Of a DNA stretch of 45,958 bases, positions 2,294 to 24,651 are shown in pieces. This DNA is from an uncultured Ruminococcus sp. (lineage in GTDB: Bacteria > Bacillota > Clostridia > Oscillospirales > Ruminococcaceae). Position numbers and translations under genes: made by a program. The stretch is taken from contig CAMVRM010000022.1 in assembly GCA_947169885.1 (NCBI GenBank), positions 1 through 45,958 of the forward strand. Reading direction: 5' to 3'. The notes under the pieces were generated by a model. That model was given only the letters and a program-made list of their open reading frames with translations, had not been told where the DNA came from and made no database searches. The stretch's first letter is position 1, and every line of letters begins with the position of its first letter.

Positions 2294-5200
2294 ATGTCTA
2301 AACTCGCAGCTATCGCTGAAAGATACGAGGAGTCGTTAAAAAAAGCCGGCGATAATTACAAGGATTTTTTAGGTTTTGCTTCAAGGCTTTACACCATGAG
2401 TTTTTCCGATGCGGTGACTTTATACTATTATGACCCAGCTGTTACTTCGGCTGCCGGCTCTAAAGAATGGCAGGAGGTCGGGCGCAGGGTAAAGCGTGAT
2501 GCAAAGGGTATACCCGTTATCCGTGAGGACGGAAAGGGTGTGCTGCTTTTCAGAGAAAGTGATACCGTAGAGATACCACGTCTGAAAATCAATGATGAGC
2601 CTGCTGTATCATTACCGGGAAGTTGGACTATCAAGGCTGACGATCAGTACAGCATAAATAAGCTTTTCAGGCAAAGATACGAAAAAAGATTCATGTCCTT
2701 CGGGCAGGCGTTAGACCATATCGTTTCAGAAAACACAGAGGATCACATTTCCGATATATACGATCTGTGCAGACAAAGAGGATATAGTGAGGAAGCCGCT
2801 GATAAAACAGCATATTCCTTTGAAAGCTGCTGCCGTTACTCTGCGGCAGTCCGCTGTGAGTACGGGTCAGGGGATACTTCGCTGTCGGCTTCGAGAGAAT
2901 TATATATAGACAATGCGCTGCGTTCAGATACAGATCTGTTTAAGAAATTCTGTATCATGGTGCATAACAGCACCTCAGAGATACTTTCTGAGATCGAAAG
3001 CACAGTTACAGAGTATTACAAGGAAAATAATAAAAGCGTTGAACAGGCAGCAGAGGAAAAGAACAAGGTCACAGCACCCGATCATTGGGCGCTTTTGTCT
3101 CAGACCTTTCCAAATATGTTTGACGGAGAGCCTAAAAACGCTTATGAGATATACGAAGATAAAAACGGGAACAGAACAGAGCTGCGTTTTCTGACACATG
3201 GCAGAAAGTTTACGGCAGCCGAGATACTGACAGACGATCATGAGCCTGTTCGTATACCGATGAACGAAGCAGAAGGAATAAATGCTGATGACCTTGCATA
3301 CCTTACCAAAATGCTTCAAAGCTTTGACCACAGTTCAAACACCATTGCAGACTACATGAGCGTTGACGAATACATGAATATGCTGGATTCTGCAACGCTG
3401 TCTCTTGATGCCTATGACCTGCATATCAACCTTTCAGCAGTGGAAGAACTGGTATTCGTTGTATTTGAGAGCGAAAAAGGCAAGGGCGGCGGAGATGTAT
3501 TTCTCAACGAATACGGTTTCATTCAGTTCAATGATTACAGGGGCGGACACAAGGTAACATATTATGACCCTATGGAACCCGATGAATGTGCGGCTCTTGA
3601 AAAGGATGTTACCGACTTTATTATGACTTCAAGCAATATACAGCTCAGAGCCATTAAGGATAAAAAGATCACATATATCCCGCTTGTGAATAATGCAGAA
3701 CTGAGAACGGCGCTGAAACACATTTCCGACTATATTTACAGCGAGTTTGATGAGGAGTTTGATATTTCGGCAGCGCTTAACAGACCGGATAACATAGGGC
3801 TTGCTTACACCACTATTGATGATGACAACGATACTGAACATGATGTGAACGTTTATGCCGATCTGAATGCACTTGAACTTGTGACCGAGATAGATGGTAA
3901 GGTCTTCAAGAGTGAAAAGTATGAAAGCATCGGGCAAATGGACAGGAACGTTTTTGACGGACTAAAGTTTGATGAGCTTTTTGTATTCACCTCTGATGAG
4001 TATGCAAGGATAACAAAGGAATATGGCATAAACGAGCCTGCTGCTAACTCAGAACAGGAAACAGAGGATATTGACAGCGAGGAAGAAAACGTAGTATCAG
4101 TGCTGATACCGCCGATAACCGATGAAAATATCATATATGCAGTCTTAAAGCACGATCAGTTTTTCAGCAAAACAGCAGAGGAAATAAGCGAATACTTTTC
4201 CGCAAACGCTGACACCGATGAGCGTATCTCGTTCTTAAAGGAAACGATAAATGACGATTATTCGCAGATATTCCTGGGTGACGGTGAGGACGTATACGGC
4301 TACAAGACCTATGACTGGGGTATGGTCATATGGGAGGGCAGCTACCTCGTGAAAACCAAAAAGCGTGATATTCCGTGGGACGAGCTTGCGGAGATCTACG
4401 CTCACATGGCTGAAAACGGCTTGCTCACAGCGGAGAATGCTGTCACCTCCGATGAGGTGTATTTTACCTCAGATGATGAAAATATTGAGCAAGCTGACAC
4501 AAATGACAACGGTGAGCAGCAGTCATTTTTTGCAGACCTTGCAGACACTCCTGCGGAGCAGACGGTTTCTTCTAAAAAGAAAAGCAAAAAAACAAACCGC
4601 AGGTCTGACAGAAAGCTGCTGCCTGCAAGTGAGATAACCGATGAGATGGTGGACTTCGTGCTTCGCTGCGGAAGTACCGAGAGAAAGTCACTTGAAAGAA
4701 TTGTGGCATTTTATCAGAAGGACAAGTCCGAATCTGACAATGCAGAGTTTCTGAAGGAGGAATTTTGCGGGCGACACAGTATCGCAGGAAGCTATCTTCC
4801 CACAAGCGATATTATATCGTTGGGACAGATAAGCAGGCTGAAAGTGACGTCATCTGACAGCAGAGGATATTATTATCCGATCACCGGCGAGGGCGAAGTG
4901 CAGCTCACAGCAAGGTTTGAGGGATCGGGTATCACCATTGGCGGCGGTGAGAGATCATCAGCTGCTGTTTGCCGAACCATAACGTGGGAGGAAGCTGCCG
5001 AACGCATCGAAGCTATGTTTTCAAGCGGAAGCTACTGCGCTAAGGAAATCATCGACCGGGCAGAGGACAACGAATCAAAGGATATAGCTGAAAGCCTGTG
5101 GTATCTGCATCAGGACACAGACCACGAGATATATCAGTTTTTTATTTCCGATGAAATGTTCAGGGGCGGTTTCCCCGACAGCACTGAACGGATAAGGCAC

Positions 5201-8200: not shown

Positions 8201-11200
8201 ACACAGACTGTGACCGAAAGCACCGATGAAAACAACGCAGAACAGCTTTCAATGTTCGATGCTCCGGCAGCACCGCAGATCATAGAGCCTGCAAAAGAAG
8301 CTGTCACAGAAGAAAACTCTGCCACATGGCAGAAAACAAGCGCACTGAACTATGTCTATGATCCTGCAAACCTACCCGAAAAGGGAGCAAGAAAGCGGTT
8401 TGAAGCAAATTACGAAGCGGTTTCTCTGCTTAAAAGAATAGAAGCTGAGGGCAGGAACGCAACAGCCGATGAACAGAAAATACTTGCCCGTTATGTCGGG
8501 TGGGGAGGACTTTCGGCAGCCTTTGACCCGAATAATTCTTCATGGACAGGAGAATACAACAGACTTAAAGAACTGCTGGACGAAAAAGAATACAGTGCTG
8601 CAAGATCGTCGGTGCTTACTGCCTACTATTCCTCGCCTGAGATCATCGAAGGAATTTATGAAGCATTGAACGGCATGGGCTTTAAGGGCGGAAACGTTCT
8701 TGAACCGTCAATGGGTATCGGAAACTTTTTTGCACAGTACCCCTATAAGTGGAAGAACAGCTCTCATCTTTACGGTGTGGAGCTTGACGATATTACCGGG
8801 CGTATAGCAAAGCTGCTCTACCCCGAAGCAGATATACAGATAAAGGGCTTTGAAAAGACCGCATACACAGACAACAGCTTTGACGTTGTTATCGGAAATA
8901 TACCCTTTGGTGATTTCAAGGTCAACGACAAGCGCTACAACAAGCATAATCTTAATATCCACGATTATTTCCTTGCAAAGTCCTTAGATCAGGTACGCCC
9001 CGGCGGAGTTATCGCAGTTGTCACCTCAACGTTTACGCTGGATAAAAGGACTGAAAAATTCAGAAATTACCTTGCCGGGCGCTGCGATCTTCTCGGTGCG
9101 GTAAGGCTGCCAAAGGGAACCTTTGCAGATACAGACACAGCAAGCGATATACTGTTCTTGCAGAAGCGTGAGGGTGTAAACACCATAATGCCCGAATGGA
9201 CAAAGGTTGGCTGCAACTCAGACGGCTTCAAACTTAATGAGTATTTTATACAGCACCCCGATATGATACTGGGAACGATAAAGAAAAATACACGCTTCGG
9301 AGAGGAGAGTGAGAATATCGACATAATCGCTGACCCGTCAAGGGGAAGTCTCAGAGAACAGATACAGGAAGCAGTATCCAAAATTCATGGGTGGATAGGT
9401 CAGTCACAGCTTGTACGGCTTGCTACAAAGGATACAGACGGCGAGGATATTATCGCATCAGACCCAAACGTGCCGAATCAGACCTACACTATCCTTGAAA
9501 ACGGAGAGGTCTATTTCCGCAGCAATGAGATAATGCAGAAGTGCAAGGAAAGCGGAAAGAGGCTTGACAGGATAAAAGGAATGTGCAGGATAAGGGACAT
9601 TGGTATGCAGCTTATCCGTGCGGAAGCAAACGGCTGTGATGACAAGACCATGATACTCATGCAGGAACAGCTTAATGCAGAGTACGACAGGTTCGTGAAA
9701 AAATTCGGGTATTTATCCGACAGCGCAAACGCTGTTTTCTCAGATGACCGCTATTATAATACGATCTGTTCCTTTGAATCCAAGCAGGAAAAAGAGGGAG
9801 AGAAGGTAAAGTATGTTAAGGCAGCTATCTTTTATCGCAGGACTATCCAGCCCGAAGTTGAGGTGCTGAAAGCCGACACCCCGGAGGACGCACTTATCGT
9901 TTCGATAGACAAGCTGTGCAGAGTGGATATAGGCTATATGTCTGAACTTACCTCGATGCCGCCGGAGGATATTATTCTTTCTCTTAAAGGAAAAATTTAC
10001 AGAGACCCCGAAATGATAAAGGCTGACGATCCCCTGTCGGGATATGTGGAAGCAAGCGAATATCTTTCGGGTGACGTAAGACACAAGCTTGCAGCGGCAA
10101 AGCTTAGGGCTGAGATAGAACCCGATTATGAGGAAAACATAGCGGCTCTTGAAAGCATACAGCCTCCGCTGCTCCAGCCGGGAGACATTGTTCTCCAACT
10201 GGGACACCCGATAGTGGAGATCGACGATTACAACACATTTATAGAGGAGTATGCAAATGTAAACGTAGAATACCGTAATACAGTAATGCGGACACCTATG
10301 GGCGAGTTCAAGCTTGCAAACCGCAGCTTCGGCACAACAGAAGCAGAAACAGCAATCTACGGCACGAAAAGAATGGACTGCTATGAGATACTTGTGCGGC
10401 TGCTCAACGGACGTGACCTCAAGGTAAATGACCGTGTTGACCTGCCTGACGGGTCATGCAGATACGTTGTCAACGAAGCCGAAACAAGACGGGCGCAGGA
10501 AAAGGGCAAGCAGATGGACGCTGCATTTAAAAAGTGGATATGGGAAGACCCGGACAGAAGCGACAAGTATGTAAAGCTGTACAACGATAAATACAACTGC
10601 CTTGTGCTTAGGTCTTATGACGGTGCAGAGCTGTCTCATCCGGGCATGAACCCCGATATTAACTTATATCCGCATCAGCAGAATGCCGTAGCAAGAGCAA
10701 TGTACGGAAATATGCTGCTTGCTCACGATGTTGGTGCAGGCAAGACCTTTACAATGGGCTGCATAGCCGCCGACAAGGTATCAAGAGGACTGGCTTCAAG
10801 GGTACTATGGCTGTCTCCAAAGTCGATAATCAAGCAGAGCGCAGATGAGGTGCAGAAGCTTTATCCTAACCTGAAAATATATGTGCTGTCCGATAAGCTC
10901 AGCACAAAGAAAGAGCGTCAGCGCTCAGTAGCATCTATCCTGTCCTCAGATGCCGAGGTGGTATTTATGACCCCAGAAACCTTTGGAATGATACCTATGA
11001 GCAATGAATATCAGATCGACTATCTTAACAGAAAGAAAGCAGAGTATCGTGCTTATCTTGAAGGCTTAGGGTCGAGCCGCTGGGCAACGGCAGAGGAGAA
11101 AATAAGTATCAAGGCTATCGAAAAGGAGATAAAAAACCTTGAAGAACGAACAGCGGTGCTTATGGAAAAGCACAGCGACAACAGCTATAACTTTGAGGAT

Positions 11201-13231
11201 TTCGGCTTCAACTATCTGATAGTCGATGAATATCATCTGTACTTCAAGAATATGTATCAGCCGACTAAGATGGGAAATATCCCCGGATTGCAGAACAGTC
11301 CGTCAAAGAGGGCAGAGGATTTCCGCATGAAGGTGGGATATATGCGTGAACAGTACGGCAGCAGTTTTATGACGCTTGCAACGGCAACACCCGAAACAAA
11401 CTCCCACCTTGAATGGTACAATATGATGAGCATTTGTGATCCGGAGGGGTTGCAGAGGGCAGGCATATACACGGCTGATGACTGGATAAAATCCTACGTT
11501 GTCATCGAGTCTAAGTATGTTCCTTCCCCCAGCGGATCAGGGCTTACATTCAGAAAGCAGGCTAATTCATTCAACAACGTTCCTGAGTTAAAGGCTCAGA
11601 TACACGAATTTGCCGACATTGTACCCACTGAAAAAACAAATATCGTTATCCCGAAGCGTTACAGCGGAAAGGAGATCATCATAAGCTGTGAGCAAAGCGA
11701 AGCACAGAAAAATGCAATGGAAAGCTTCATGCAGCGTGCTGAGAGGATACACAGCGGCAGCGTTCCTCCCGATATTGACAATATGCTGCTTATAATGCAC
11801 GAATCAAACCTGTGCAGCTTAGACCAGCGGTACTTAGACCCTGCGCTGCCCTGTGACCCAAACGGGAAGCTTGGGACCTGCGCAAAGCTTGTAAAGGAGT
11901 GGTATGACAACACAAATGACCGAAAGGGCGTTCAGATCGTTTTCCTTGACAGAGGTGTAAACGAGATAAACGGTTTTTCGGCATACAAGGCTTTGACTGA
12001 TGAGCTTACTGCACAGGGTATTCCCCGTGACGAGATCTGCATGGCGAACGATGCAAAAAATGACAAGGAGCGTGATGCAATGTATGACGAACTCAGAAAG
12101 GGAAAAAAGCGTGTTGTTATCGGCTCACGACAGAAGCTTGGGACGGGAGTTAATATCCAGAACAAGGTAGTTGCCATGTATAATATAGACCTGCCATTTA
12201 CGCCTGCAAACAAAAAGCAGGGCGAAGGCAGAGGTCTGAGGCAGGGCAATGAAAACTCAGAGGTAGCTGTGTACACCCTTGTTACCAAAGGCTCACTTGA
12301 TACCTACATGGCTAATCTGCTATGCAACAAGGAAACAGGACAGCAGCAGCTTCTCGACCCCGAAATATGCTGTTCACGCTCTATTTCTGACATAAGCGAG
12401 AGCGCACTGACCTTCCGTGATATGCAGATAGCTACAACGGATAACCCTTATCTTGCGGAGTTCTTAACACTTAAAGATGAGGTCTTGCAGCTTGAAGCGC
12501 TTGAAAAAGACCATACACGGCAGGTCATCGCTCTTGAACGAAAGATAAACCATGAGTTCCCGCAGCAGATAGAGAGCATTAAGTCTATCATCGAAAAGCA
12601 GACTGAGGATCTGAAACACTTTGAGGAAAACAGACCCGAAAAGTTTGAAATGGTGATAGGCGATGTAAAGACAGATGAGCGTGAAAAATGCGCTGCATAC
12701 ATGGAAAAGGCAAGAATAGAAGCCAGGTCAGCAGATGAAAGCGTTCTTGTGGGCAGCTATGCAGGATTCCCGGTGTATATCTCGCCAAAAAGAGTTTTCA
12801 GCGAAACTCTGTTCGGGTATCAAGCCGTCTATGAGATAAGCGTTCAGGCTAATTTCAAGTACCGCACCGATTACGGAGAAGCGGCTGACGAAAAAGTAAA
12901 CGTGGGCAACACCACAAGGCTTGAGAATATCTTTTCTAACAGCCTGCCTAAGCTGCTGGCACAGCAAAAGGACAGACTTGAAAAGCTTGAAACAGACCTG
13001 CGGCTTTCAAAGGAAATGGTGGAAAAGCCCTTTGACCATGCGGAGGAACTGAAAACAAAGCGTGAGAGAATGGAGTTTCTTACGGATAAGCTGACAAGCA
13101 GCAGCAAGACCAGTGCTTTGCTCGATGATTCTCCGGAGGACGATATTTTCCTTGCTGCTGACGATACACGAGCTATTTCAGATGACCTGCAAAAGAAGCC
13201 GAACACTGTAATTAAGTCAGTCAGGCGGTAA
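2294..13231 (+). CDS. giant DNA methyltransferase / SNF2-type helicase protein, 3645 aa
   Basis: A multidomain protein of the ICE family that joins an N6-adenine methyltransferase to a superfamily 2 helicase, like the antirestriction protein DarB of phage P1. Visible parts in order: an ArdC-like N-terminal domain (about 6-95, with EWQEVGRRVKRDAKGIP); three diverged copies of an unnamed domain (about 611-705, 782-915, 1036-1155); a MutS domain I-like segment (about 1543-1615, HKVGDFYEIYGEEA); beta-rich segments; a methyltransferase (RYVGWGGLSAAF about 2066; motif I LEPSMGIGNF about 2136; NIPF 2202-2205); a helicase with Walker A HDVGAGKTF (2811-2819), DEYH (2978-2981), TATPETN, GTGVNIQN and GEGRGLRQGN (3310-3319); and a C-terminal coiled coil. 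It probably protects or remodels transferred DNA. ATG 2294 has AGAAGGA upstream. Confidence 0.9.
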   Translation: MSKLAAIAERYEESLKKAGDNYKDFLGFASRLYTMSFSDAVTLYYYDPAVTSAAGSKEWQEVGRRVKRDAKGIPVIREDGKGVLLFRESDTVEIPRLKINDEPAVSLPGSWTIKADDQYSINKLFRQRYEKRFMSFGQALDHIVSENTEDHISDIYDLCRQRGYSEEAADKTAYSFESCCRYSAAVRCEYGSGDTSLSASRELYIDNALRSDTDLFKKFCIMVHNSTSEILSEIESTVTEYYKENNKSVEQAAEEKNKVTAPDHWALLSQTFPNMFDGEPKNAYEIYEDKNGNRTELRFLTHGRKFTAAEILTDDHEPVRIPMNEAEGINADDLAYLTKMLQSFDHSSNTIADYMSVDEYMNMLDSATLSLDAYDLHINLSAVEELVFVVFESEKGKGGGDVFLNEYGFIQFNDYRGGHKVTYYDPMEPDECAALEKDVTDFIMTSSNIQLRAIKDKKITYIPLVNNAELRTALKHISDYIYSEFDEEFDISAALNRPDNIGLAYTTIDDDNDTEHDVNVYADLNALELVTEIDGKVFKSEKYESIGQMDRNVFDGLKFDELFVFTSDEYARITKEYGINEPAANSEQETEDIDSEEENVVSVLIPPITDENIIYAVLKHDQFFSKTAEEISEYFSANADTDERISFLKETINDDYSQIFLGDGEDVYGYKTYDWGMVIWEGSYLVKTKKRDIPWDELAEIYAHMAENGLLTAENAVTSDEVYFTSDDENIEQADTNDNGEQQSFFADLADTPAEQTVSSKKKSKKTNRRSDRKLLPASEITDEMVDFVLRCGSTERKSLERIVAFYQKDKSESDNAEFLKEEFCGRHSIAGSYLPTSDIISLGQISRLKVTSSDSRGYYYPITGEGEVQLTARFEGSGITIGGGERSSAAVCRTITWEEAAERIEAMFSSGSYCAKEIIDRAEDNESKDIAESLWYLHQDTDHEIYQFFISDEMFRGGFPDSTERIRHSLRDPDTLESYISGMEKLISDYAENRDIMRFHFHEPYVLLNKLRDLRIERRDFDAVIDKQPDYEHFVSDDEIDDIILGSHFDKKFEFAGFFAEEHTDKEKASFVKKYHGTGGHSMRGGWVSYDHKDYSYQRGDYDENNCTKMISWAEYASRVETFINAGTYITRADHLERVRDCLWNIKRYIESQNENRENAAFNTDYEYKQYEKNIGILNDYGIRTDIVLQRLTGKIVSMSASDLREGDIIRYDGHVMEVEQVGSSGITMKYNDADTFGGILQSSRLGIIHDEWVDEMNEKGIVLISRKRTDEQEITYDDDEEIGTPVTIDLTDTQDTPEKLSVKNSIENSNYNNLCRLYPNVMNGSHVSEVYGADGFDDLVIDRYGTQLIMSHNYVQNGDIMYDPRIDFVIDDDKRSVTPYSYENSGLGVYDEYTEGSAGQKDCSSFVKTWLNNIEQQPYKLERVYLTYNDCDLTVDYDENGEIKAIDGDDAARAAYIKDNNISLKAEKLHRVITNAGFDGGIDDKLEYTTLEEAVKAGDSYLSEGYLGYAVLNSETKIIERIEGDFPADEAFSDEVLSINGMTKRSKGSIAIHKVGDFYEIYGEEAAAASKELGLYLTKKQGREMCGFPDHAKDEYCDKLRDAGYLVVNMSASDEQTAENTLTVGDVIYMPPLKTIGVNGKPYMSKGYYGEITSADDSGARLDTFADAELTESRGEHYFQSNTDTWQHKLETRGYRYIGRADIIRSQREQNSTRLKEIVFVCSADKAVLSEIKDIVLSYGSTVTDGNKLTLFTSENYIDELKRIVDDFGGGMILDSENNQIYPEIQPVKKLAPDEVAVGDRFRHVVTGEIAEVVSLSGALDFYTDQCTVTTDKGSYAVTENISYDKLLNTAFYEYIGKAEPEKEQNNIPEIKNLSQMKKKLRPGMLFEVTAHHRTDSIGEYRVITSVSTVDFTSRKVNENGEPYGREIHMEFDKAKNWTFDEGEMTYRYETGELVMGFRLVDSVAEKTQTVTESTDENNAEQLSMFDAPAAPQIIEPAKEAVTEENSATWQKTSALNYVYDPANLPEKGARKRFEANYEAVSLLKRIEAEGRNATADEQKILARYVGWGGLSAAFDPNNSSWTGEYNRLKELLDEKEYSAARSSVLTAYYSSPEIIEGIYEALNGMGFKGGNVLEPSMGIGNFFAQYPYKWKNSSHLYGVELDDITGRIAKLLYPEADIQIKGFEKTAYTDNSFDVVIGNIPFGDFKVNDKRYNKHNLNIHDYFLAKSLDQVRPGGVIAVVTSTFTLDKRTEKFRNYLAGRCDLLGAVRLPKGTFADTDTASDILFLQKREGVNTIMPEWTKVGCNSDGFKLNEYFIQHPDMILGTIKKNTRFGEESENIDIIADPSRGSLREQIQEAVSKIHGWIGQSQLVRLATKDTDGEDIIASDPNVPNQTYTILENGEVYFRSNEIMQKCKESGKRLDRIKGMCRIRDIGMQLIRAEANGCDDKTMILMQEQLNAEYDRFVKKFGYLSDSANAVFSDDRYYNTICSFESKQEKEGEKVKYVKAAIFYRRTIQPEVEVLKADTPEDALIVSIDKLCRVDIGYMSELTSMPPEDIILSLKGKIYRDPEMIKADDPLSGYVEASEYLSGDVRHKLAAAKLRAEIEPDYEENIAALESIQPPLLQPGDIVLQLGHPIVEIDDYNTFIEEYANVNVEYRNTVMRTPMGEFKLANRSFGTTEAETAIYGTKRMDCYEILVRLLNGRDLKVNDRVDLPDGSCRYVVNEAETRRAQEKGKQMDAAFKKWIWEDPDRSDKYVKLYNDKYNCLVLRSYDGAELSHPGMNPDINLYPHQQNAVARAMYGNMLLAHDVGAGKTFTMGCIAADKVSRGLASRVLWLSPKSIIKQSADEVQKLYPNLKIYVLSDKLSTKKERQRSVASILSSDAEVVFMTPETFGMIPMSNEYQIDYLNRKKAEYRAYLEGLGSSRWATAEEKISIKAIEKEIKNLEERTAVLMEKHSDNSYNFEDFGFNYLIVDEYHLYFKNMYQPTKMGNIPGLQNSPSKRAEDFRMKVGYMREQYGSSFMTLATATPETNSHLEWYNMMSICDPEGLQRAGIYTADDWIKSYVVIESKYVPSPSGSGLTFRKQANSFNNVPELKAQIHEFADIVPTEKTNIVIPKRYSGKEIIISCEQSEAQKNAMESFMQRAERIHSGSVPPDIDNMLLIMHESNLCSLDQRYLDPALPCDPNGKLGTCAKLVKEWYDNTNDRKGVQIVFLDRGVNEINGFSAYKALTDELTAQGIPRDEICMANDAKNDKERDAMYDELRKGKKRVVIGSRQKLGTGVNIQNKVVAMYNIDLPFTPANKKQGEGRGLRQGNENSEVAVYTLVTKGSLDTYMANLLCNKETGQQQLLDPEICCSRSISDISESALTFRDMQIATTDNPYLAEFLTLKDEVLQLEALEKDHTRQVIALERKINHEFPQQIESIKSIIEKQTEDLKHFEENRPEKFEMVIGDVKTDEREKCAAYMEKARIEARSADESVLVGSYAGFPVYISPKRVFSETLFGYQAVYEISVQANFKYRTDYGEAADEKVNVGNTTRLENIFSNSLPKLLAQQKDRLEKLETDLRLSKEMVEKPFDHAEELKTKRERMEFLTDKLTSSSKTSALLDDSPEDDIFLAADDTRAISDDLQKKPNTVIKSVRR
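8319..8332. repeat. dyad repeat, copy 2 (inside a coding sequence)
   Basis: CTGCCACATGGCAG, the same core as the intergenic copies, is read in frame as residues around SATWQ (about residue 2009-2013 of the giant protein). It lies in a low-complexity linker (proline, alanine and glutamate-rich) directly before the methyltransferase module. Confidence 0.75.
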
Positions 13232-16590: not shown

Positions 16591-17082
16591 ATGAGTGAGA
16601 AGTACAAGCTGATCTTTGGAGATGAGGGCAGTTTTACAGGCAAGGCACAGGTGAGAGCATATATAAACTACCTTTGCAGAACTGACGATGAACAGAAGTG
16701 GACAGCCGGCAACACAGGCAGCGATCAGATCATCATCTGCACACCTGCACTGTCTATCGACAAGCTGACCGATGTGCTTGACATAAGAAAACAGTTTGCA
16801 AGACAGACCGATCTTATCGTCCAGCAGCTTGGAGCATATGTGAATGCCGGCAAGCTGCTTGCCCTCAGAAAGTGTACCGCAGAGTTTGATAACAGAGAGC
16901 TTACGGAGTTTGACGGCGATATGACACGAGCATTTATCAAGCTTATAGAGGAAATGCAGGGCATTGACAGCATTGTTCCCGTTGCTGCCGTTTCTCACGA
17001 AGAAAAGGACGAATATCTCGGCTGCCGTATAGAGCTGCTTTACTTTAATTTCTCGGAATATGCGCTGATAGATGTTATCTGA
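16591..17082 (+). CDS. hypothetical protein, 163 aa
   Basis: A soluble alpha/beta protein beginning MSEKYKLIFGDEGSF, with GAAAGGAAG upstream of ATG 16591. It starts 18 bases after the ArdC gene and is probably in its operon. No domain recognised and no catalytic motif visible. It is followed by a stable RNA stem (17092-17157), which may end the operon. Confidence 0.6.
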   Translation: MSEKYKLIFGDEGSFTGKAQVRAYINYLCRTDDEQKWTAGNTGSDQIIICTPALSIDKLTDVLDIRKQFARQTDLIVQQLGAYVNAGKLLALRKCTAEFDNRELTEFDGDMTRAFIKLIEEMQGIDSIVPVAAVSHEEKDEYLGCRIELLYFNFSEYALIDVI

Positions 17083-17091
17083 AAAAAAGAA

Positions 17092-17157
17092 AAAGCAGAT
17101 AAACTGTTCAAGACTATAGGATACCGATTATCCAAAACGACTTCAGTTTACTGCTTT
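17092..17157 (+). terminator. long-armed stem with internal hairpin, probable terminator
   Basis: AAAGCAGATAAACTG (17092-17106) pairs with CAGTTTACTGCTTT (17144-17157), 14 pairs with one bulge. Inside the loop is a second hairpin, GGATA-ccgat-TATCC (17119-17133). The T-tract is short (CTTTGAT), so the element could be a structured leader or attenuator of the next gene rather than a simple terminator. The rest of the gap to 17245 is AT-rich with no confident promoter. Confidence 0.5.
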
Positions 17158-17245
17158 GATAATAGTATAGCATACACAACAAAAAAATGTCAAGTCATTT
17201 TCTGAGTATTTGACAGAAATTTCACAGCAAAAAGGAGAGGATAAA

Positions 17246-19624
17246 ATGAATCCATTTGAAGAATACGGATTTGAACCTGTTTCGGAATCATATGATGAGG
17301 ATTCCAGACAAGATACATTATATTCAATAAAGGTCAACGATGAGATATTCTATATCGAATATAATGAATACTGGTACTGGAGTATAACGAATAGCTACGG
17401 TATGCCGCTTTTTCATGAAGAACTGGACAGAGCCGAAAAGCTGTCTATAAGGGAATGCAAGGACTATCTTTCGGAATATTTTCCGCTTGTGTACGGCTTT
17501 TCTCTGGAAGACCGTGAGCAGTTTATGAAAGCTGACCTCGCACGTTTTATTGCTAAGGAATCGCTTTCTTCCGATGAATGGGAAAGCTTAGCCTATCCGA
17601 TGTTTGAAAACAAGTATATTGATAGGCGTAAACCGAGCGAAAAAAGCATACTGGGACATTTGGAAGAGCCTGAAGTATTTGAGATCGCCCGCCGCTTTCA
17701 TAACGGAGAAGATATACGAAGGGAGCTTGCCCTCGGTCTTTTAGATTTCAATAGTGATATTGAGATCGTCTTTGGCGAGGACGGCATAACAAGTTCAACT
17801 TATAGATATGGCAAGGATACCCCTCGTTATAAGATCCACGCAAAAAAAACAGAAGATGGCGTAAAGCTCAGTCTGTTCGATAAGGAACGCATCGTGAGCT
17901 ATGAGGAGATCGGACAGAAATTTATAGATTTGATACATAAGGAATTTGAGGACTTGGCATATTGGGCTGTGCTTGATTTTATCAAGGACGAAATTCCTGA
18001 TATTTCGGACGAAACGGTAAAGTCACTTATTACAGCTTTTGATAATAACAAAATGCATGGCTGGGATAGTGGTGACGATCAGGCAAAAATCAACCGTATC
18101 AAGAAGGCTTTGAACGAGTTCCTTAGTGACGAGGAGCAGACTGAAAAGGCTTTTACCTGCATTGCTAAACGGAAGTATAACGTCGAATTTGCCGATAATT
18201 CCTCTAAAACGGCGGTTTTCAGCCTTGAACAGAATGGAGAGGTGCAGTATTTCAAGACAGCTGAGACTGCGGAAAAGCTTCTTGAAACCGTCAAAAACAG
18301 CGAACACGCATTTATCGACATTTCCAAATTGGGTACTCGTATCAGCGAAGCCGAATTTGCGGAGATAGAGCAGAGCAAAGCTGTGACATTTTCGGCGGAG
18401 ATCGACCTTGATATAAAAACTGCCAAACTGACTGAGATAAATAACGGCAAGGGCGGCATTGCCGATCCCGACAGGAACAGCGAAAATACTTCTGTGCAGG
18501 AAATACGTTTAGACGGCATGGAAATAACACAAAGCCGCATAGAGAGCATGAAATATATGGGTATCGAAACAGAAGCTGTCCGCAGTGAACTTGCCCGTTC
18601 TGCCGGTATACCGATAAGCGAGCTTGATGCTCTGCTTAAAGAAGAGTGTTTTGAAATTATAGCGCACGATCTTCTCAAAGGTCTGGAGCAGATCAGCGGC
18701 ATAGATGATCCCGACACAGAAAAAGCAGAGGAAACACTGTTGCAGTCACAAGGAATAGATATGGCAGGACTGCGATTTGACTTATATGAAGCTGCAAGAG
18801 CGCATTATTCAGCCGAATTGACAGACAGCATCAGGAACGGAACACAGGATATAGTGTTCACAAAATTCTATTTTGAGGGAGATACGATGAAGCTGTATCC
18901 CGGACGGTATGATGATATAACCGATGTCCCCGACTGGGAGGAGGTGCGCCGTTCTCTGCTTTGTCCCGAAAACGGTGTTGATGATAATGTCAAGGTGCGC
19001 TGCGAGCAATTTGTTATAGGCTGCGGAAGTGAACGTGAAGAAAGAAACGAACGAAATGCCCTGCCCTCTGAGCTTGTGCTTTTGGAAAGCTGTTTCAAAA
19101 ACGAACCTCACACATATGAGCTGCCACAGGAGTTTGACAGCAGGCTGAAAAAAACTTATGATGATTCCGAGTTTGTAATGATGTATCTTGACCCCGATGA
19201 TGTTGTGTATGATATACTTTTAAACGGAGAAAAGAAGCACAATGAAGCACCCGAAATGACCAACTCCGCTTTCAGAGATGTTTTTATTCAAAGCAGCCCA
19301 CGCTTTGCACTTGAACAGATAAAGCTGAACTGTGCCGAATGGAAAAAATGGGACGAGGCTATAATGTACATGACCGACAACAAGCTGACGGCTGATGATG
19401 TGGATATGGTAGCTGTCGCCGTGATCGACAGCAGCGGAGCAAGGGGTGTCAGAGATATGACACCCGAAGGGCTGTTTGTACTTAACAAACATACTGTCAC
19501 AAACTCACTTGCCGCAGGAATGGCTATGAAAAAGCATGGGGAACTGATGAAACGTGCAGAAGCAGAAAGGAAAGAAAAGGAAAGCGAGCCTGCGCTTGTA
19601 AAGAAAAACAGCGGCAGAAAGTAG
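17246..19624 (+). CDS. hypothetical ICE protein, 792 aa
   Basis: AAAGGAGAGG at 17231-17240 fits ATG 17246, so an in-frame upstream start at 17210 is rejected. The protein is acidic and soluble with no named domain I can assign. Its last about 90 residues (WDEAIMYMTDNKLTADDVDM, then a short strand pair, MTPEGLFVLNKHT and SLAAGMA) closely match residues 50-120 of the 146-residue protein at 21002-21442, so both carry the same C-terminal module. The Rpn locus lies between them. A role in transfer-DNA metabolism is guessed from context only. Confidence 0.6.
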   Translation: MNPFEEYGFEPVSESYDEDSRQDTLYSIKVNDEIFYIEYNEYWYWSITNSYGMPLFHEELDRAEKLSIRECKDYLSEYFPLVYGFSLEDREQFMKADLARFIAKESLSSDEWESLAYPMFENKYIDRRKPSEKSILGHLEEPEVFEIARRFHNGEDIRRELALGLLDFNSDIEIVFGEDGITSSTYRYGKDTPRYKIHAKKTEDGVKLSLFDKERIVSYEEIGQKFIDLIHKEFEDLAYWAVLDFIKDEIPDISDETVKSLITAFDNNKMHGWDSGDDQAKINRIKKALNEFLSDEEQTEKAFTCIAKRKYNVEFADNSSKTAVFSLEQNGEVQYFKTAETAEKLLETVKNSEHAFIDISKLGTRISEAEFAEIEQSKAVTFSAEIDLDIKTAKLTEINNGKGGIADPDRNSENTSVQEIRLDGMEITQSRIESMKYMGIETEAVRSELARSAGIPISELDALLKEECFEIIAHDLLKGLEQISGIDDPDTEKAEETLLQSQGIDMAGLRFDLYEAARAHYSAELTDSIRNGTQDIVFTKFYFEGDTMKLYPGRYDDITDVPDWEEVRRSLLCPENGVDDNVKVRCEQFVIGCGSEREERNERNALPSELVLLESCFKNEPHTYELPQEFDSRLKKTYDDSEFVMMYLDPDDVVYDILLNGEKKHNEAPEMTNSAFRDVFIQSSPRFALEQIKLNCAEWKKWDEAIMYMTDNKLTADDVDMVAVAVIDSSGARGVRDMTPEGLFVLNKHTVTNSLAAGMAMKKHGELMKRAEAERKEKESEPALVKKNSGRK

Positions 19625-19629
19625 TTTTC

Positions 19630-19647
19630 TTCTGCCATGTGGCAGAA
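19630..19647. repeat. dyad repeat, copy 3
   Basis: TTCTGCCATGTGGCAGAA, 5 bases after the stop at 19624 and 23 bases before the -35 box of the Rpn promoter. With copy 4 (20966-20979) it brackets the Rpn locus. Confidence 0.85.
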
Positions 19648-19670
19648 AACGTAAAAATTAGTAAAAATGC

Positions 19671-19699
19671 TTGACAGTTTGCTCTGAAAAGGGTATAAT
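19671..19699 (+). promoter_or_regulatory. consensus sigma-A promoter of the Rpn locus
   Basis: TTGACA (19671-19676), exactly 17 bases, TATAAT (19694-19699). Both hexamers match the consensus, making this one of the strongest promoters visible in the window. It gives the Rpn locus its own transcription. Confidence 0.9.
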
Positions 19700-19739
19700 A
19701 TAATTAATAAAATAAAAAAAATGAAAGGTGATGATACCA

Positions 19740-20636
19740 ATGTCTGAATCAGGCAATACTTCAAGAGAGTATAAGGACAGATTGTTCAAGTTTTTGTTCG
19801 GAAATCCCGACAATAAGGAGTGGACCTTGAGCCTTTACAACGCAATGAACGGTTCAAACTATACCGACCCTGAACTTATACAGATAAACACTATCGAAGA
19901 TGTTGTTTATATGGGTATGAAAAATGATGTTTCGTTTCTTATCGAAAATACCATGAATCTGTATGAACAGCAATCGACCTTCAATCCTAATATGCCGATG
20001 CGTTTTTTCATATACGCCGGTATGCTTTACAGCAAATTTATTGAGGGAAAGAAGTCTTATCTGAGGTACAGTACCGTTTTGCAGAAAGCACCCACTCCGA
20101 AATGTATATGCTTTTACAACGGCAAGACGGAAAAAGAAGACAGATTGGTTTTAAAGCTGTCTGACTGCTTTGATAAGAATGTAAGTTCTGATATTGAACT
20201 TAAAGTAATGATGATAAATATAAACTACGGGCATAACAAGGAGCTGCTGAACGCCTGCAAGCCGCTGAAGGAATACTCGTTCTTCGTGGCTAAGGCAAGA
20301 GAGAACACAGAGCAAACGGGTTCTCTTGAACAGGCGATAGATGCAGCAATCAGTGAATTGCCCGATGATTCGATCATAAGACCGTTTCTGATCGCCAACA
20401 AAGCGGAGGTGAAACGTATGTTTATTACTGAATATGATGAAGAAAGAGCAAGAGCCGAACTTCAGGCAGAGAGCTATGATGTTGGCAAAGCTGAGGGCAA
20501 AGCCGAAACCATTTTATCAAATATCAGAACCTTGATAGAAACACTCAACTTCACCGCACAGCAGGCAATGGACGCACTGAAAGTCCCCGAACAGGAAAGG
20601 GCGCAGATAGAGGAACAGCTTGCAATGAAATCATGA
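19740..20636 (+). CDS. Rpn-family PD-(D/E)XK nuclease, 299 aa
   Basis: Start ATG 19740 is preferred with GAAAGGTGA at 19723-19731; GTG 19728 is an in-frame alternative. The N-terminal two thirds are a Rpn/putative-transposase nuclease domain. D63 in KNDVSF and E76-x-Q78 in YEQQST form the D...ExQ core, and the basic N terminus (REYKDRLFKFLFGNP) is typical. In E. coli, Rpn proteins are DNA nucleases with toxic and antiphage activity, restrained by a short protein (RpnS) translated from inside the same gene. Here GGAGGTGA (20405-20412) stands six bases upstream of an in-frame ATG at 20418, which fits such an internal start. The stop overlaps the next start (ATGA, 20633-20636). Confidence 0.85.
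   Translation: MSESGNTSREYKDRLFKFLFGNPDNKEWTLSLYNAMNGSNYTDPELIQINTIEDVVYMGMKNDVSFLIENTMNLYEQQSTFNPNMPMRFFIYAGMLYSKFIEGKKSYLRYSTVLQKAPTPKCICFYNGKTEKEDRLVLKLSDCFDKNVSSDIELKVMMININYGHNKELLNACKPLKEYSFFVAKARENTEQTGSLEQAIDAAISELPDDSIIRPFLIANKAEVKRMFITEYDEERARAELQAESYDVGKAEGKAETILSNIRTLIETLNFTAQQAMDALKVPEQERAQIEEQLAMKS
20336..20470 (+). repeat. 135-bp direct repeat, copy 1 (inside rpn)
   Basis: This segment of the Rpn gene recurs at 20635-20769 with about three differences. It contains the internal ribosome site and ATG 20418. The copies are 299 bases apart, which puts the second copy in a different frame from the first gene. Confidence 0.9.
20418..20636 (+). CDS. predicted intragenic antitoxin (RpnS-like), 72 aa
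   Basis: An in-frame internal product of the Rpn gene beginning MFITEYDEERARAELQ. Evidence is the near-ideal Shine-Dalgarno sequence GGAGGTGA at 20405-20412, five to six bases upstream of ATG 20418, at the point where the nuclease domain ends and a helical C-terminal domain begins. In E. coli Rpn genes such a product blocks the full-length nuclease. Translation of this product here is a prediction. The C-terminal pattern FTAQQAMDALKVPEQERAQI is typical of this nuclease family. Confidence 0.6.
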   Translation: MFITEYDEERARAELQAESYDVGKAEGKAETILSNIRTLIETLNFTAQQAMDALKVPEQERAQIEEQLAMKS

Positions 20637-20917
20637 TAGATGCAGCAATCAGCGAATTGCCCGATGATTCAATCATAAGACCGTTTCTGATCGCCAACAA
20701 AGCGGAGGTGAAACGTATGTTTATCACTGAATATGATGAAGAAAGAGCAAGAGCCGAACTTCAGGCAGAAATCAAAGCCGAAACTCGTTTTTTGGATATT
20801 GTAAACGTTATGAAAACATTCAATGTAACCGCACAGCAGGCAATGGATGCACTGAAAGTCCCCGAACTGGAAAGGGCGATCATAGAAGAACTGATTGCAC
20901 AGAGATCAGACAAGTGA
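20633..20917 (+). CDS. duplicated Rpn C-terminal ORF, 94 aa (or 66 aa from 20717)
   Basis: A second copy of the Rpn 3' end, starting by ATGA overlap with the stop of the full-length gene, so it would be coupled. Like the first copy it has GGAGGTGA (20704-20711) before an ATG at 20717, which would give a 66-residue RpnS-like protein. The first about 45 residues are nearly identical to the parent. The next about 20 differ (IKAETRFLDIVNVMKTF against the parent), and the last helix is again similar. It lacks the nuclease core. It is either a free-standing antitoxin variant or what remains of a second rpn gene after recombination. Confidence 0.6.
   Translation: MIDAAISELPDDSIIRPFLIANKAEVKRMFITEYDEERARAELQAEIKAETRFLDIVNVMKTFNVTAQQAMDALKVPELERAIIEELIAQRSDK
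20635..20769 (+). repeat. 135-bp direct repeat, copy 2
   Basis: About 98 percent identical to 20336-20470. After it, the sequences diverge and then become similar again over the last helix. That mosaic pattern points to recombination between rpn paralogues rather than a simple tandem slip. Confidence 0.9.
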
Positions 20918-20927
20918 ATATGAATAT

Positions 20928-20966
20928 AAACGAGCAGCATTTTTAAAATGTATGCTCGTTTTTTTC
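20928..20966 (+). terminator. terminator of the Rpn locus
   Basis: ACGAGCA (20930-20936) pairs with TGCTCGT (20953-20959), followed by seven T residues that run directly into dyad repeat copy 4. Confidence 0.9.
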
Positions 20967-20979
20967 TGCCATGTGGCAT
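20966..20979. repeat. dyad repeat, copy 4 (one mismatch)
   Basis: CTGCCATGTGGCAT: the last G of the core is replaced by T. It begins in the T-tract of the Rpn terminator and ends 22 bases before the next start codon. With copy 3 it encloses the Rpn locus. Confidence 0.75.
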
Positions 20980-21001
20980 AAGGTGAGGTGAGATAATTAC
21001 A

Positions 21002-21442
21002 ATGGAAGAGGATCTTATGCAAAGCATTATTGAGATCGGAAAGCATTCATACGAAAACGAACGTCAGCTTGATAAGCGTGTGTTTTCGGGGCATTATCTT
21101 CTGGAGCTGCCGGTCATGCGGGCTGAAGAAATTCTTTTAAAAGACAAGGAATGGCAGCCCTATGAGCAGGGAAAACAGGCATTAATGGAAAACGGTCTTG
21201 GCGCTGATGCGGTTGAAATGGTGTCGGTAAAGTGCGTTGATAATAACGGAGATATGATACAGATAGATATGCCGCCCGAAGCATTGTATATCGTCAACGA
21301 ACGCAGCAAGCACGATACACTTGCAAGGGCATTTGCAATAAATAAGCTTGAACGGAAGGAAATGGCAGCAGAGAAAAGCCTGCGTCCTGTTGATGATCGT
21401 TCGGCAAAGATGTTTCCGCACCTTGCAGGCGGCAGAAAATAA
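21002..21442 (+). CDS. hypothetical protein, paralogous to the C terminus of the 792-aa protein, 146 aa
   Basis: Starts at ATG 21002 behind AGGTGAGGTGAG. Residues about 50-120 (WQPYEQGKQALMENGLGADA, VSVKCVDNNG, PPEALYIVN and LARAFAINK) match the last 90 residues of the protein encoded at 17246-19624. This small protein is therefore a stand-alone version of that module with a different N terminus. No known domain name. It begins a tight operon of four genes ending with the primase (next ribosome site AAGGAGG overlaps its stop). Confidence 0.65.
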   Translation: MEEDLMQSIIEIGKHSYENERQLDKRVFSGHYLLELPVMRAEEILLKDKEWQPYEQGKQALMENGLGADAVEMVSVKCVDNNGDMIQIDMPPEALYIVNERSKHDTLARAFAINKLERKEMAAEKSLRPVDDRSAKMFPHLAGGRK

Positions 21443-21456
21443 GGAGGACGGCTTGA

Positions 21457-21711
21457 TTGGATAACGCTGTAAGAGATTTTTTTAAGGCACAGCGAAAAGC
21501 ATATCTAAGCTTAGACAAGGAGATCATTTGCAGCTTCTTTGAGGAATACGGTATATCTGCCCCCGATGATGAAAATGAGATGTGGCGCAACATATGTCTT
21601 ATTATCATAGATATGGGCGGAGTGCCGTCAGAAACAAGAGAAAAAGCTGAACAATGGCTCAGCGAACATGGATATTACTTGCGCAAAAAAACAGTAAAGC
21701 GAGGAAGATGA
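21457..21711 (+). CDS. hypothetical protein, 84 aa, TTG start
   Basis: A strong AAGGAGG (21441-21447) points to the TTG at 21457; no ATG or GTG is suitably placed. The product begins MDNAVRDFFKAQRKAYLSLD and is small, helical and basic at its C terminus (KKTVKRGR). It is in the same operon as its neighbours, with its stop one base before the next ATG. Unknown function. Confidence 0.6.
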   Translation: MDNAVRDFFKAQRKAYLSLDKEIICSFFEEYGISAPDDENEMWRNICLIIIDMGGVPSETREKAEQWLSEHGYYLRKKTVKRGR

Positions 21712-21712
21712 T

Positions 21713-22357
21713 ATGGAGATAAAACGTGATCTCAACGGAAGAGGATATATTATAGAACTGTCAGACGAGGAACTGTACAAGGCTTATCTCGAAAAGCGAG
21801 ACGATATTTTTCTCGATCAGATAATGCAATACCTTGACCAGACTGAGCAGATTGGCAAATATCCCGGAGAGCTGCTTCGCAGTGAACGGTTTGCAGACAA
21901 GGTGCTGACGCAGCTAAAAATGATCGAGGATAATTTTGTGGAAAATATCGGGCAGGCAGTGGCTATGGCGATAGATTATGAAATAAAATCCAACACCATG
22001 GAGGATCTTGTCACAGCTTCCACAGCAGATATTATCATGTACAAGCTGAACGCTGCGGGCTATCAGCTCAATGCAAGCAGTGCAGAACTTCAGGCGCAGC
22101 TTGCAAACAAACCTGATGAGATACTAAGATCGTTAAAGGAAGCACCTGCAATAAGCAGCGCTGACAGAGGTCAGCAGAAAATGCTCGAAAGCTGTGTAAG
22201 CACAGTTGAAAAGTATACCGCTTCTGCCATGATCGGCAGAGGAATAAATGAACTTGGCGACTATGATGACCTTGATCCCGAAAAGGGTCTTGAAAAGCCG
22301 CAGGAGCAGACTAAAAAGGAAGTGCCGCTGCGACACACACCTAAACTTAAAAGATAA
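21713..22357 (+). CDS. hypothetical protein, 214 aa
   Basis: ATG 21713 is preceded by GAGGAAG and follows the previous stop by one base, so translation is coupled. The protein is helical and acidic, with a basic C-terminal tail (HTPKLKR). No domain recognised. It is placed directly before the primase-like gene (13 bases), so a role with DNA processing is possible but unproven. Confidence 0.6.
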   Translation: MEIKRDLNGRGYIIELSDEELYKAYLEKRDDIFLDQIMQYLDQTEQIGKYPGELLRSERFADKVLTQLKMIEDNFVENIGQAVAMAIDYEIKSNTMEDLVTASTADIIMYKLNAAGYQLNASSAELQAQLANKPDEILRSLKEAPAISSADRGQQKMLESCVSTVEKYTASAMIGRGINELGDYDDLDPEKGLEKPQEQTKKEVPLRHTPKLKR

Positions 22358-22370
22358 GGCGGTGAAAATA

Positions 22371-23522
22371 ATGCCGAGATGGAGAAGTCAGAGCAACGGT
22401 GTTGCTTATATTCAATATCTCCCAGATGAGGTGGAACAGGTAAAGCAGATGAGTATGCTGGATTTTCTTAAACGGGAATACGGCTTCACATTTGATAACA
22501 GAGGCAGCGCTTATATCTGCAAGGAGCATGACAGCCTTGTGGTCATGCCCGATCAGAGATCGTGGTTCTGGAACTCGCAGGATACACACGGCAGGAATGT
22601 CATTGACTGGCTTGAAAATGTTGAGGGACATAGTTTTCAGAGTACGCTGCAAAAGCTGATAGGCACACCGGAAATGCCTGCGCAGCCTGAGTATTACACA
22701 AAGGCTCCGCAGACAGGTGACATAAGACCTGCGGAGATAAAAAAAGAGTTAGTCCTGCCGCCGAAAACGCCTGAGCAGATGAAACGCACATTTGCATATC
22801 TTATAAATGAAAGAAAGCTTGATGCGGCTGTTGTCTCGGAGCTTGTAAAAAACAAGCTGATATACGAGGAAGCAAAGCATCACAACTGCGTGTTTGTCGG
22901 ATATGACGAAAGCGGTGTACCACGATTTGCTGAAAGCAAGATCACAAATTCGTATCTTGCTGCAATGAAAGATGAAAACGGCAGAAAGAAATTTCACCCT
23001 CAGAATATAGCAGGCTCGGACAAGGCATACAGTTTTAATGTTCCGGCAGACAAAGGACGTTACCCCGCAGGGAGCAACGTCCTTTATATTTTTGAAGCGC
23101 CGGTGGATCTTATGAGCCACATGACCTTTGCGCTGATGACTGAGCGCAAGAAAGCCGGCTCTGAAGGCAGAGAACCCGACATGAGCTGTGTGAGAAGCGT
23201 GAACCGTCTGTCGTTATCCGGCAAGTCAGACAAAGCACTTTCTTCGTATCTCTCACGAAACAGCAATATCACTCAGTTAGTGTTCGGGCTTGACAACGAT
23301 GATGCAGGCAACAGCGCATCGGAAGCACTTATTGAAAAATACAAGGAACTGGGATATATCTGCAAACGTGTAAAGCCACGATTTGGCAAAGATTACAATG
23401 AATGCCTGCAAATCATAAAGAGCAAGACGGAAGAGGTAAAAAACAGAAAACCGCAGATAACGCAGAGACCAATGAACAACGAGCCTGTTTACTATTCAAG
23501 TGCCGGCTACGGCAGACGATAG
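22371..23522 (+). CDS. DUF3991/Toprim primase-like protein, 383 aa
   Basis: An in-frame start far upstream (22248) overlaps the previous gene. AAGGCGGTGA upstream supports ATG 22371. Residues about 35-95 (AYICKEHDSLVV, then SWFWNSQDTHGRNVIDWLEN) resemble the N-terminal domain of plasmid primases, with the zinc ligands mostly missing. A Toprim domain follows: FEAPVD with E242, GLDNDDAG with D308 and D310, and a final GKDYNE. Such proteins prime or process transferred single-stranded DNA in ICEs and plasmids. It is the last gene of the four-gene operon, and its stop is followed immediately by dyad repeat copy 5. Confidence 0.8.
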   Translation: MPRWRSQSNGVAYIQYLPDEVEQVKQMSMLDFLKREYGFTFDNRGSAYICKEHDSLVVMPDQRSWFWNSQDTHGRNVIDWLENVEGHSFQSTLQKLIGTPEMPAQPEYYTKAPQTGDIRPAEIKKELVLPPKTPEQMKRTFAYLINERKLDAAVVSELVKNKLIYEEAKHHNCVFVGYDESGVPRFAESKITNSYLAAMKDENGRKKFHPQNIAGSDKAYSFNVPADKGRYPAGSNVLYIFEAPVDLMSHMTFALMTERKKAGSEGREPDMSCVRSVNRLSLSGKSDKALSSYLSRNSNITQLVFGLDNDDAGNSASEALIEKYKELGYICKRVKPRFGKDYNECLQIIKSKTEEVKNRKPQITQRPMNNEPVYYSSAGYGRR

Positions 23523-23524
23523 GT

Positions 23525-23546
23525 TTTTCTGCCATGTGGCAGAAAA
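23525..23546. repeat. dyad repeat, copy 5 (full 22-bp symmetry)
   Basis: The core CTGCCATGTGGCAG (23529-23542) is flanked by TTTT and AAAA, so the dyad extends over 22 bp with only the central two bases unpaired. It starts two bases after the primase stop and ends four bases before the -35 box of the next promoter. Confidence 0.85.
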
Positions 23547-23550
23547 AAAG

Positions 23551-23579
23551 TTGACATTTATCAGCAAATATGTTAAAAT
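23551..23579 (+). promoter_or_regulatory. sigma-A promoter of lipoprotein 1
   Basis: TTGACA (23551-23556), 17 bases, TAAAAT (23574-23579). The adjacent dyad repeat is well placed to act as an operator. Confidence 0.85.
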
Positions 23580-23604
23580 ATTAACGAAAGGAAGTGCTTT
23601 TAAA

Positions 23605-24651
23605 GTGTACAAAGGAAAGCTAATAATTGCCGCAGCTATTATTTCAGCAGCACTGACAGTAACAGCCTGCGGTAACAGTTCTGACGATAACTCTAAATCG
23701 TCAACAAAGGCAGAAACAAAAGCAACTGCTGCCGAATCAGTCGAAAGCGCAGAAGAGAGCAAGACGGAGAGCCTTGCGGAAAGTGTCACGGACACAAGTA
23801 CAGTCCCCGATACAGACATGACCCCCGACAGTTCTGTTGCCGAAAGTGAGACTACTTACAGCGAGTATGACAGTATCACTCCTGAACCGTCAACTGTGAA
23901 GATCAGCAGCGATTGGACTGACCTTGAATTTGTTGTTGACGGAACTGTTTTTAAACTCGGTGTTTCGGCATTTGGAGATCTGTGGAATGCACATTTTATT
24001 GACCAAATGAATACATACGAAGATGCAATGAGAAAACAATCCGATTATATTCCGCTCAATCAGGAATTACCGCATTGGCAGTTCTTCAAAAGCGATGAAT
24101 ACGGGTATCTTTCAGATTTCGATACTTATGCGTATTTCAGTCTTATGCCTGTAAATGACGGCGAGATTCAGAATAATGTGATAACAGCATTTGAGGTTGA
24201 TAACACGTCTAAATTATATAATAAGTTCAAAGGTAATGAGATCAATATGATCACAGCGACCGTATCAGGTAAGATCACGTTTGGTTCTACTGCTGACGAT
24301 ATAATTACGGCATACGGTGAACCTGATGTAAGAGAGGATGTTGACAATTGGGAGTGTCTTGATGATTTTCGCAAATATGGCAAAATGCTTAGTAATCCGT
24401 CCTCATCATCTTCCTTTACGGGTTCTAAGACAATGATCGATGGAGTTACTTATATCAACGGTGTTGAAGTTCAGTCCGAAGCAGAAAGTAACGAAGAAAA
24501 TGTTGTACACAGAGAATACAAGGAAGAAGATTTCCACAAGGAAATAATCAAATATTCTTCCGGAAACAAGGAAATTACATTTGTTGTAAGTGATCTTGTA
24601 GGTGTCTGCAAAATAACGATAAAGCAAGACGTAAACGAGAAATTTGAATAA
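23605..24651 (+). CDS. lipoprotein 1, Ser/Thr-rich linker, 348 aa
   Basis: GTG 23605 with GAAAGGAAG (23586-23594) lies correctly downstream of the promoter; an in-frame ATG at 23500 lies upstream of the promoter and is rejected. The sequence has a signal peptide (KGKLIIAAAIISAAL) with lipobox TVTAC, then about 80 residues rich in Ser, Thr, Glu and Ala, then a globular domain. The domain includes ITFGSTADDIITAYGEPD, a pattern seen in small secreted BamE/SmpA-like folds. The protein is probably attached to the outer face of the membrane. It is a monocistronic cargo gene with its own promoter and terminator (24675-24712), between the primase and the pilin. Its role is unknown; surface exclusion or mating-pair functions are possible. 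Confidence 0.75.
   Translation: MYKGKLIIAAAIISAALTVTACGNSSDDNSKSSTKAETKATAAESVESAEESKTESLAESVTDTSTVPDTDMTPDSSVAESETTYSEYDSITPEPSTVKISSDWTDLEFVVDGTVFKLGVSAFGDLWNAHFIDQMNTYEDAMRKQSDYIPLNQELPHWQFFKSDEYGYLSDFDTYAYFSLMPVNDGEIQNNVITAFEVDNTSKLYNKFKGNEINMITATVSGKITFGSTADDIITAYGEPDVREDVDNWECLDDFRKYGKMLSNPSSSSSFTGSKTMIDGVTYINGVEVQSEAESNEENVVHREYKEEDFHKEIIKYSSGNKEITFVVSDLVGVCKITIKQDVNEKFE

Follow-up and report, generated by a model that had tools for sequence, protein, structure and literature searches.

We consider it probable that the stretch of DNA analyzed here, a window of 45,958 nucleotides from an uncultured Ruminococcus sp., carries an rpn gene-within-gene toxin-antitoxin unit on a conjugative element, and that the duplicate lying directly downstream of the nuclease gene is an RpnS of different specificity rather than the antidote of its neighbor. 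The RpnL/RpnS gene-within-gene toxin-antitoxin system has been published, and downstream copies in E. coli are already reported in the accessible text of that work (PMC10327210); the layout of the window is therefore not new. The initial annotation of this DNA had proposed an Rpn nuclease with an intragenic antitoxin, a proposal that is well supported by the sequence, which has RpnA-like catalytic residues, a conserved and codon-biased Shine-Dalgarno (SD) plus ATG, and four-residue repeats.

The features of the unit are collected in Table 1. Five promoter-like sites were found in the region against 3.1 expected, and only the one ahead of rpnL scored 12/12. The internal ATG does stand behind GCGGAGGTGAAACGT, as had been annotated, but the spacing of six bases given for it does not hold, as GGAGGTGA ends 5 nt before the ATG. 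Translation from 20418 would yield the 72-aa RpnS. No SD was seen near the first ATG (20633) of the downstream ORF, so that a product of 66 residues would be likelier than one of 94 aa; both short lengths agree with those predicted in the annotation. The 135-bp duplication carrying the internal start, with its two ORFs overlapping by ATGA, was likewise confirmed, and its 45 codons contain 4 synonymous and no non-synonymous differences between the copies. A further repeated stretch of 136 nt (20498-20633 and 20773-20908) is 78% identical. The middle segment of the second ORF does differ as described, 24 nt (8 residues) being absent relative to the parent rpnL, and the last ~45 codons have diverged (7.2 synonymous and 22.8 non-synonymous changes, dN/dS 0.87). 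In the window copy, RpnS keeps its start and SD, and residues 1-18 are unaltered. The terminator-like hairpin beyond the copy was not among the sites given by the pattern scan that found the promoter-like sites.

Table 1. Coordinates of the features of the rpn unit in the window.
Feature	Position	Strand	Evidence or remark
Sigma-70-type promoter-like site TTGACA-17-TATAAT	19671..19699	+	12/12 consensus; 40 nt upstream of rpn start codon
rpnL, predicted 298-aa PD-(D/E)XK-type nuclease, divergent Rpn subfamily	19740..20636	+	D13, D63, E76, Q78, R88; AlphaFold2 pLDDT 85.6
135-nt direct repeat, copy 1	20336..20470	+
Internal translation start: SD GGAGGTGA, 5-nt spacer, ATG 20418	20405..20420	+	Sequence, codon and SD tests
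rpnS within rpnL, 72-aa putative antitoxin: a long helix containing the zone of four-residue repeats, followed by two short ones	20418..20636	+
Free-standing second rpnS-like ORF, 94 aa	20633..20917	+	ATG overlaps rpnL stop by ATGA
135-nt direct repeat, copy 2	20635..20769	+	98% identical to copy 1
Predicted 66-aa free-standing RpnS: SD GGAGGTGA and ATG 20717	20704..20917	+	8 residues (two repeat units) shorter in helix, diverged tail
Intrinsic terminator-like hairpin and T run, 3′ of second copy	20928..20965	+	Fold -15.9 kcal/mol for 20920-20970, z -4.5

The nuclease belongs to a divergent Rpn subfamily that occurs mainly in genomes from gut and rumen metagenomes, judging by record titles. 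Identification by curated HMMs alone failed, the window protein lying below the cut-offs of both TIGR01784 (14.0 vs. 52.1 bits) and PF12784 (13.5 vs. 27.4). The protein contains the D...D...E-x-Q...R pattern of the PD-(D/E)XK core, and over 130 genes the columns concerned are strongly conserved (D63, Q78 and R88 in 130, E76 in 128, D13 in 119). The corresponding residues of RpnA, matched here by order and pattern without alignment to RpnA, are D11, D63, E82, Q84 and R94, which were tested by mutation according to the accessible text of PMC5350276. Of 52 aligned relatives, 32 matched TIGR01784 at E ≤ 0.001 (best 4.3e-12) and 8 matched PF12784, and a profile comparison with the PF12784 member encoded on contig C83 of the same genome gave a probability of 94% (E 1.4e-7), partly over the shared tail. 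PADLOC returned just a weak match, to candidate PDC-S02 (E 2.9e-4). When the AlphaFold2 model was compared with the PDB by Foldseek, McrC and other nucleases were among the matches, none of them at E ≤ 0.001 (best E 0.025). The C-terminus is modeled as one long helix (234-269) and two short ones; RpnA-S of E. coli is a three-helix structure (PDB 7TH0; PMC10327210, accessible text). RpnA-L/RpnA-S resembles the window in its catalytic D, D, E-x-Q and R and in an internal start before the C-terminal part, whereas the window protein, known here from its sequence, is too divergent from RpnA for a match among PDB sequences (0 with phmmer). A distant blastn search gave no plasmid match, and no relative was confirmed by a peptide-pattern scan of IMG/VR. 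Relatives at 33-45% identity are encoded in five phage records that come from human faecal samples and lack annotation; for three of these records (MT836069, MT838692 and MT837051; 38-45% identity) the E values are 4e-51 or lower.

Free-standing C-terminal copies recur among the relatives of this gene. Among the 124 homologs whose downstream sequence extends for 250 nt or more (130 genes minus 6 with less), 17 have such a copy at most 1.5 kb away; these homologs were sampled for their similarity to the window and include related species. Parents with free-standing matches numbered 18 at first, but one of them, L141 at 1489, has its copy in common with the gene that follows it. The layout had been called unusual, a description contradicted by this count and by the E. 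coli precedents rpnE-ypaA and rpnC in the accessible text of PMC10327210. The first-listed copy match starts 0-11 residues ahead of the internal start in 15 of the 17 cases, the others being the window (27) and L132 (23). When the 66-aa copy was searched in 396 genomes of the family, only 4 genomes besides its own gave matches, the identities being 43% or less; a toxin bearing the same tail as the copy was thus not detected in those 396 genomes.

Some of these copies are degenerate: L114, L148, L022 and further L138 matches are broken, truncated or frameshifted. Of the scorable copies, 3/15 have no permissive SD-like match, namely the two at L031 and the one at L008. There are also tandem arrays of full-length units, whose repeat numbers differ (L053, L083 and L141). 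Together with the dN/dS of 0.87 in the tail of the window pair, these cases fit the idea that a copy is an unselected and decaying by-product of duplication, driven by Rpn or by replication slippage. We regard this as possible though on the unlikely side, and it is compatible with a non-cognate part for the copy. It accords poorly with the 12 of 15 scorable copies that retain a permissive SD-like match, several of these having diverged ahead of the SD, and with the accessible text of PMC10327210, according to which the free-standing YpaA/RpnE-S is made in E. coli. Moreover, the pooled free-standing pairs gave a dN/dS of about 0.21-0.26, a rough value in which related pairs are counted repeatedly, suggesting that many of the copies are kept as coding sequence.

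A comparison with the other Rpn loci of the host, which the initial annotation had advised, brought out a second case of an internal start with a free-standing copy, on contig C83 (L004). An internal SD-ATG is present in the rpn genes of this genome on C22, C23 (35504), C4 and C83, and the pattern is absent from the PF12784-family genes on C8 and C23 (12951), which are near-identical and one of which has GGGAG before an internal ATG. These last two genes (L177 and L178) encode PF12784 Rpn proteins of 246 and 250 aa, one four-residue unit apart. The C83 nuclease, unlike that of the window, belongs to PF12784 (E 1.7e-49), a different subfamily, and the C83 copy starts exactly at the internal ATG; by reading, it is near-identical to its parent save for 7 more repeat units (+28 aa) and 3 extra residues at the end. 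Viewed by eye, the promoter, the terminator-like hairpin and the tail of the C83 unit are much like those of the window (L004 180-240 and 1700-1755), and the two units look as if nucleases had been exchanged between shared ends. The window tail is nearest to the C83 tail (score 156 vs. 125 for the window's own copy) and the nuclease part is nearest to L008 and L070 (72%), so tails appear to move between nucleases. Elsewhere, on the minus strand of L007 (1443-1943), a 167-aa ORF ends in an Rpn-type tail like that of the window but has no Pfam nuclease match, and adjoins an ORF that by eye resembles a serine recombinase.

The closeness of the window tail to that of a different nuclease subfamily would also be expected if the downstream copy served mainly to donate tails; recombination between the 135-nt repeats would delete 299 bp and so exchange the tail of RpnL. 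The repeats, at 98% identity, supply the homology for such an event, and among E. coli strains we found single-copy rpnE genes with the copy's tail (L164 and L165; L166 has a similar tail and has lost neighboring genes), fusions of this kind being reported in E. coli in the accessible text of PMC10327210. A fusion may nevertheless be a loss and not a selected switch, and the window locus is known from one strain; we give a main role in tail switching a minor share of the probability, while noting that it and the reading of the copy as an RpnS of different specificity are not exclusive.

Repeat numbers bear on the specificity of the copies. In the accessible text of PMC10327210, one experiment with RpnC is described in which RpnC-L was blocked only by an RpnC-S of equal repeat number, one repeat of difference abolishing inhibition. 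In the homologs of the window, the helix of the copy differed in length from that of the parent RpnS by a non-zero multiple of four residues in 15/15 scorable copies (13 parents), with differences from -36 to +8; L014, L022, L114, L148 and the further degenerate L138 matches were left unscored. In the window, the helix of the copy falls 8 residues short of that of its partner, so that the copy does not share the repeat number that would mark it as cognate. The same was seen in E. coli, where repeat numbers were mismatched at 13/13 rpnE/ypaA loci (K-12 and 12 strains, with 7 distinct repeat combinations; the difference in K-12 is one unit, KLEG) and at 11/11 two-copy rpnC loci, these 24 loci being a sample picked by hand from lists, spread over the matching genomes, which numbered 5371 and 5374. 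The rpnC copies begin further upstream, and some of their length differences are not multiples of four. Two random genes have equal RpnS length in just 2.8% of pairs, and the data are accordingly an absence of matching and not active avoidance; the latter was considered and is not claimed, as a freely drifting repeat number also predicts mismatch. A mismatch between parent and copy was not found stated in the literature searched or in the accessible text of PMC10327210.

Since only a repeat-matched RpnC-S blocks RpnC-L, we predict that mismatched copies give no protection from the adjacent toxin, and the mismatch argues against the copy being a second antidote for the same RpnL, whether as an extra dose or as a separately expressed supply. 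A second antidote would be consistent with the unchanged start, SD and first 18 RpnS residues, and with the position of the copy between the same promoter-like site and terminator-like hairpin as rpnL. It is hard to reconcile with a loss of two repeat units and a tail carrying 22.8 non-synonymous changes in 45 codons, and with mismatch in every scorable copy and in 24/24 E. coli two-copy loci when a single repeat suffices to abolish RpnC inhibition (PMC10327210, accessible text), and we consider it unlikely. The repeat mismatch leaves room for the suggestion, made in the initial annotation, of a second copy that broadens immunity so as to cover a related Rpn.

The internal start is conserved and codon-biased among the homologs. 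In the wider set of 130 genes (those of 146 unique genes that are complete and reach the internal-start region), the Glu residue encoded within the SD is specified by GAG in 126/126 genes with Glu at that place, whereas GAG accounts for 36.3% of Glu codons elsewhere and for 48/148 at other Glu-Val dipeptides. In a smaller set of 86 non-redundant genes (94 minus 2 duplicates and 6 that were truncated, broken or unalignable) the corresponding figures are 85/85 and 31.7%, and the SD Glu has the strongest codon bias of the 173 columns tested, with no comparable codon fixation in the other Glu columns listed. The preceding Ala is encoded by GCG in 63/76 of these genes, and a Ser at that place by TCG in 7/8. 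An SD with ATG stands at the internal-start column in 126/130 genes of the wider set, 26 of them having the ATG one codon past the aligned column, compared with 25/1249 other internal in-frame ATGs. By the strict test it is absent from L032, L103 (SD with TTG), L115 and L118. These codon and SD counts come from related sequences and are therefore given without a p-value. With GAG fixed and SD plus ATG kept to this degree, the internal start appears to be under selection. The helix a short way behind the internal Met contains four-residue repeats of varying number. L066, cut by a contig end and left out of the 130, has AGG as internal start codon behind an intact SD, and in L050 the tail appears by eye to be frame-shifted within the repeats, giving an unrelated C-terminus.

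It is very improbable that the internal SD merely slows ribosomes or reflects a conserved Glu-Val-Lys motif, with no separate product, for although the residues Ala-Glu-Val are conserved in themselves, the codon choice is fixed far past the amino acids for Glu, Ala and Ser alike, the ATG lies at initiation spacing, and free-standing copies begin at or near the SD-ATG unit. Promoters at both internal starts were also considered and set aside, the matches (9/12) being at chance level. A structured RNA switch was dropped, as RNA folding over both starts was ordinary (z -1.0 and -0.6) and Rfam gave no match within 17000-24000.

The arrangement in the window has close counterparts in other bacteria. 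In E. coli rpnE-ypaA and rpnC, as in the window, a full-length Rpn with an internal start is directly followed by a free-standing C-terminal copy (PMC10327210, accessible text), although the E. coli genes are of a different Rpn subfamily and a different phylum. Unlike the E. coli copies, that of the window includes 28 codons ahead of the inner ATG, and its ORF shares ATGA with the stop of the parent; in K-12 rpnE, by reading, the homology of the copy starts at the SD right behind the parent stop. In C. difficile, also a Gram-positive organism, RpnS was made from the internal RBS and start when rpn was cloned in E. coli (PMC10327210), and no free-standing copy is described there in the accessible text of that work.

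The window also encodes a MobL relaxase, a TraG-type coupling protein and a TraG P-loop (VirB4-like) ATPase domain, and topoisomerase and ArdC-like genes are likewise present. Given these conjugation-type genes, the rpn unit appears to travel as cargo on a conjugative element. Positions 2294-13231 of the window, on this element, are taken up by one ORF of 3645 codons. An 18-nt near-palindrome, TTCTGCCATGTGGCAGAA, occurs at window positions 562, 3189, 7345, 8317, 19630, 20964, 23527, 40102 and 42417, with 17 strand matches (at most 3 mismatches) at these nine places in the element against 0.04 expected. It flanks the rpn unit on both sides, and one more exact copy lies on contig C8 of the genome; it is possibly a regulator or module-boundary site.

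In the model that we favor, a single promoter would drive a transcript of the rpn unit, which would be translated from 19740 into the nuclease RpnL and from the internal SD and ATG 20418 into RpnS, the C-terminal helical domain alone. By analogy with E. coli RpnA, RpnS would bind RpnL and keep the nuclease inactive, RpnL being toxic when unrestrained. Because RpnL and RpnS are read from shared codons, toxin and internal antitoxin cannot differ in repeat number, and the overlap of rpnL and rpnS forces co-evolution (PMC10327210, accessible text). The downstream ORF would be a tandem duplicate of the antitoxin translation unit that is free to change: duplication would release the antidote from the overlap lock, letting it keep or gain another repeat number and tail, the direction of the change in repeat number being one that we infer. 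With two four-residue units fewer and a diverged tail, the window copy is predicted to be non-cognate to the adjacent RpnL, provided that repeat matching also governs specificity in this subfamily. Its RpnS may act on another Rpn allele or paralog and may donate an alternative tail; immunity to other alleles, a reservoir of tails and a by-product of duplication are each conceivable roles. More tentatively, and short of calling it probable, we suggest that free-standing RpnS copies across bacteria may form a distinct class of non-cognate antitoxins, which would protect against a different Rpn allele, be it past, incoming or paralogous, and store a tail with which specificity could be switched.

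With these findings, a divergent Rpn subfamily joins those of gene-within-gene toxin-antitoxin design, with codon-level support for a selected internal start. If the published repeat-matching rule is valid here, the free-standing copies should fail to neutralize their neighbor, in this host as well as in E. coli K-12.
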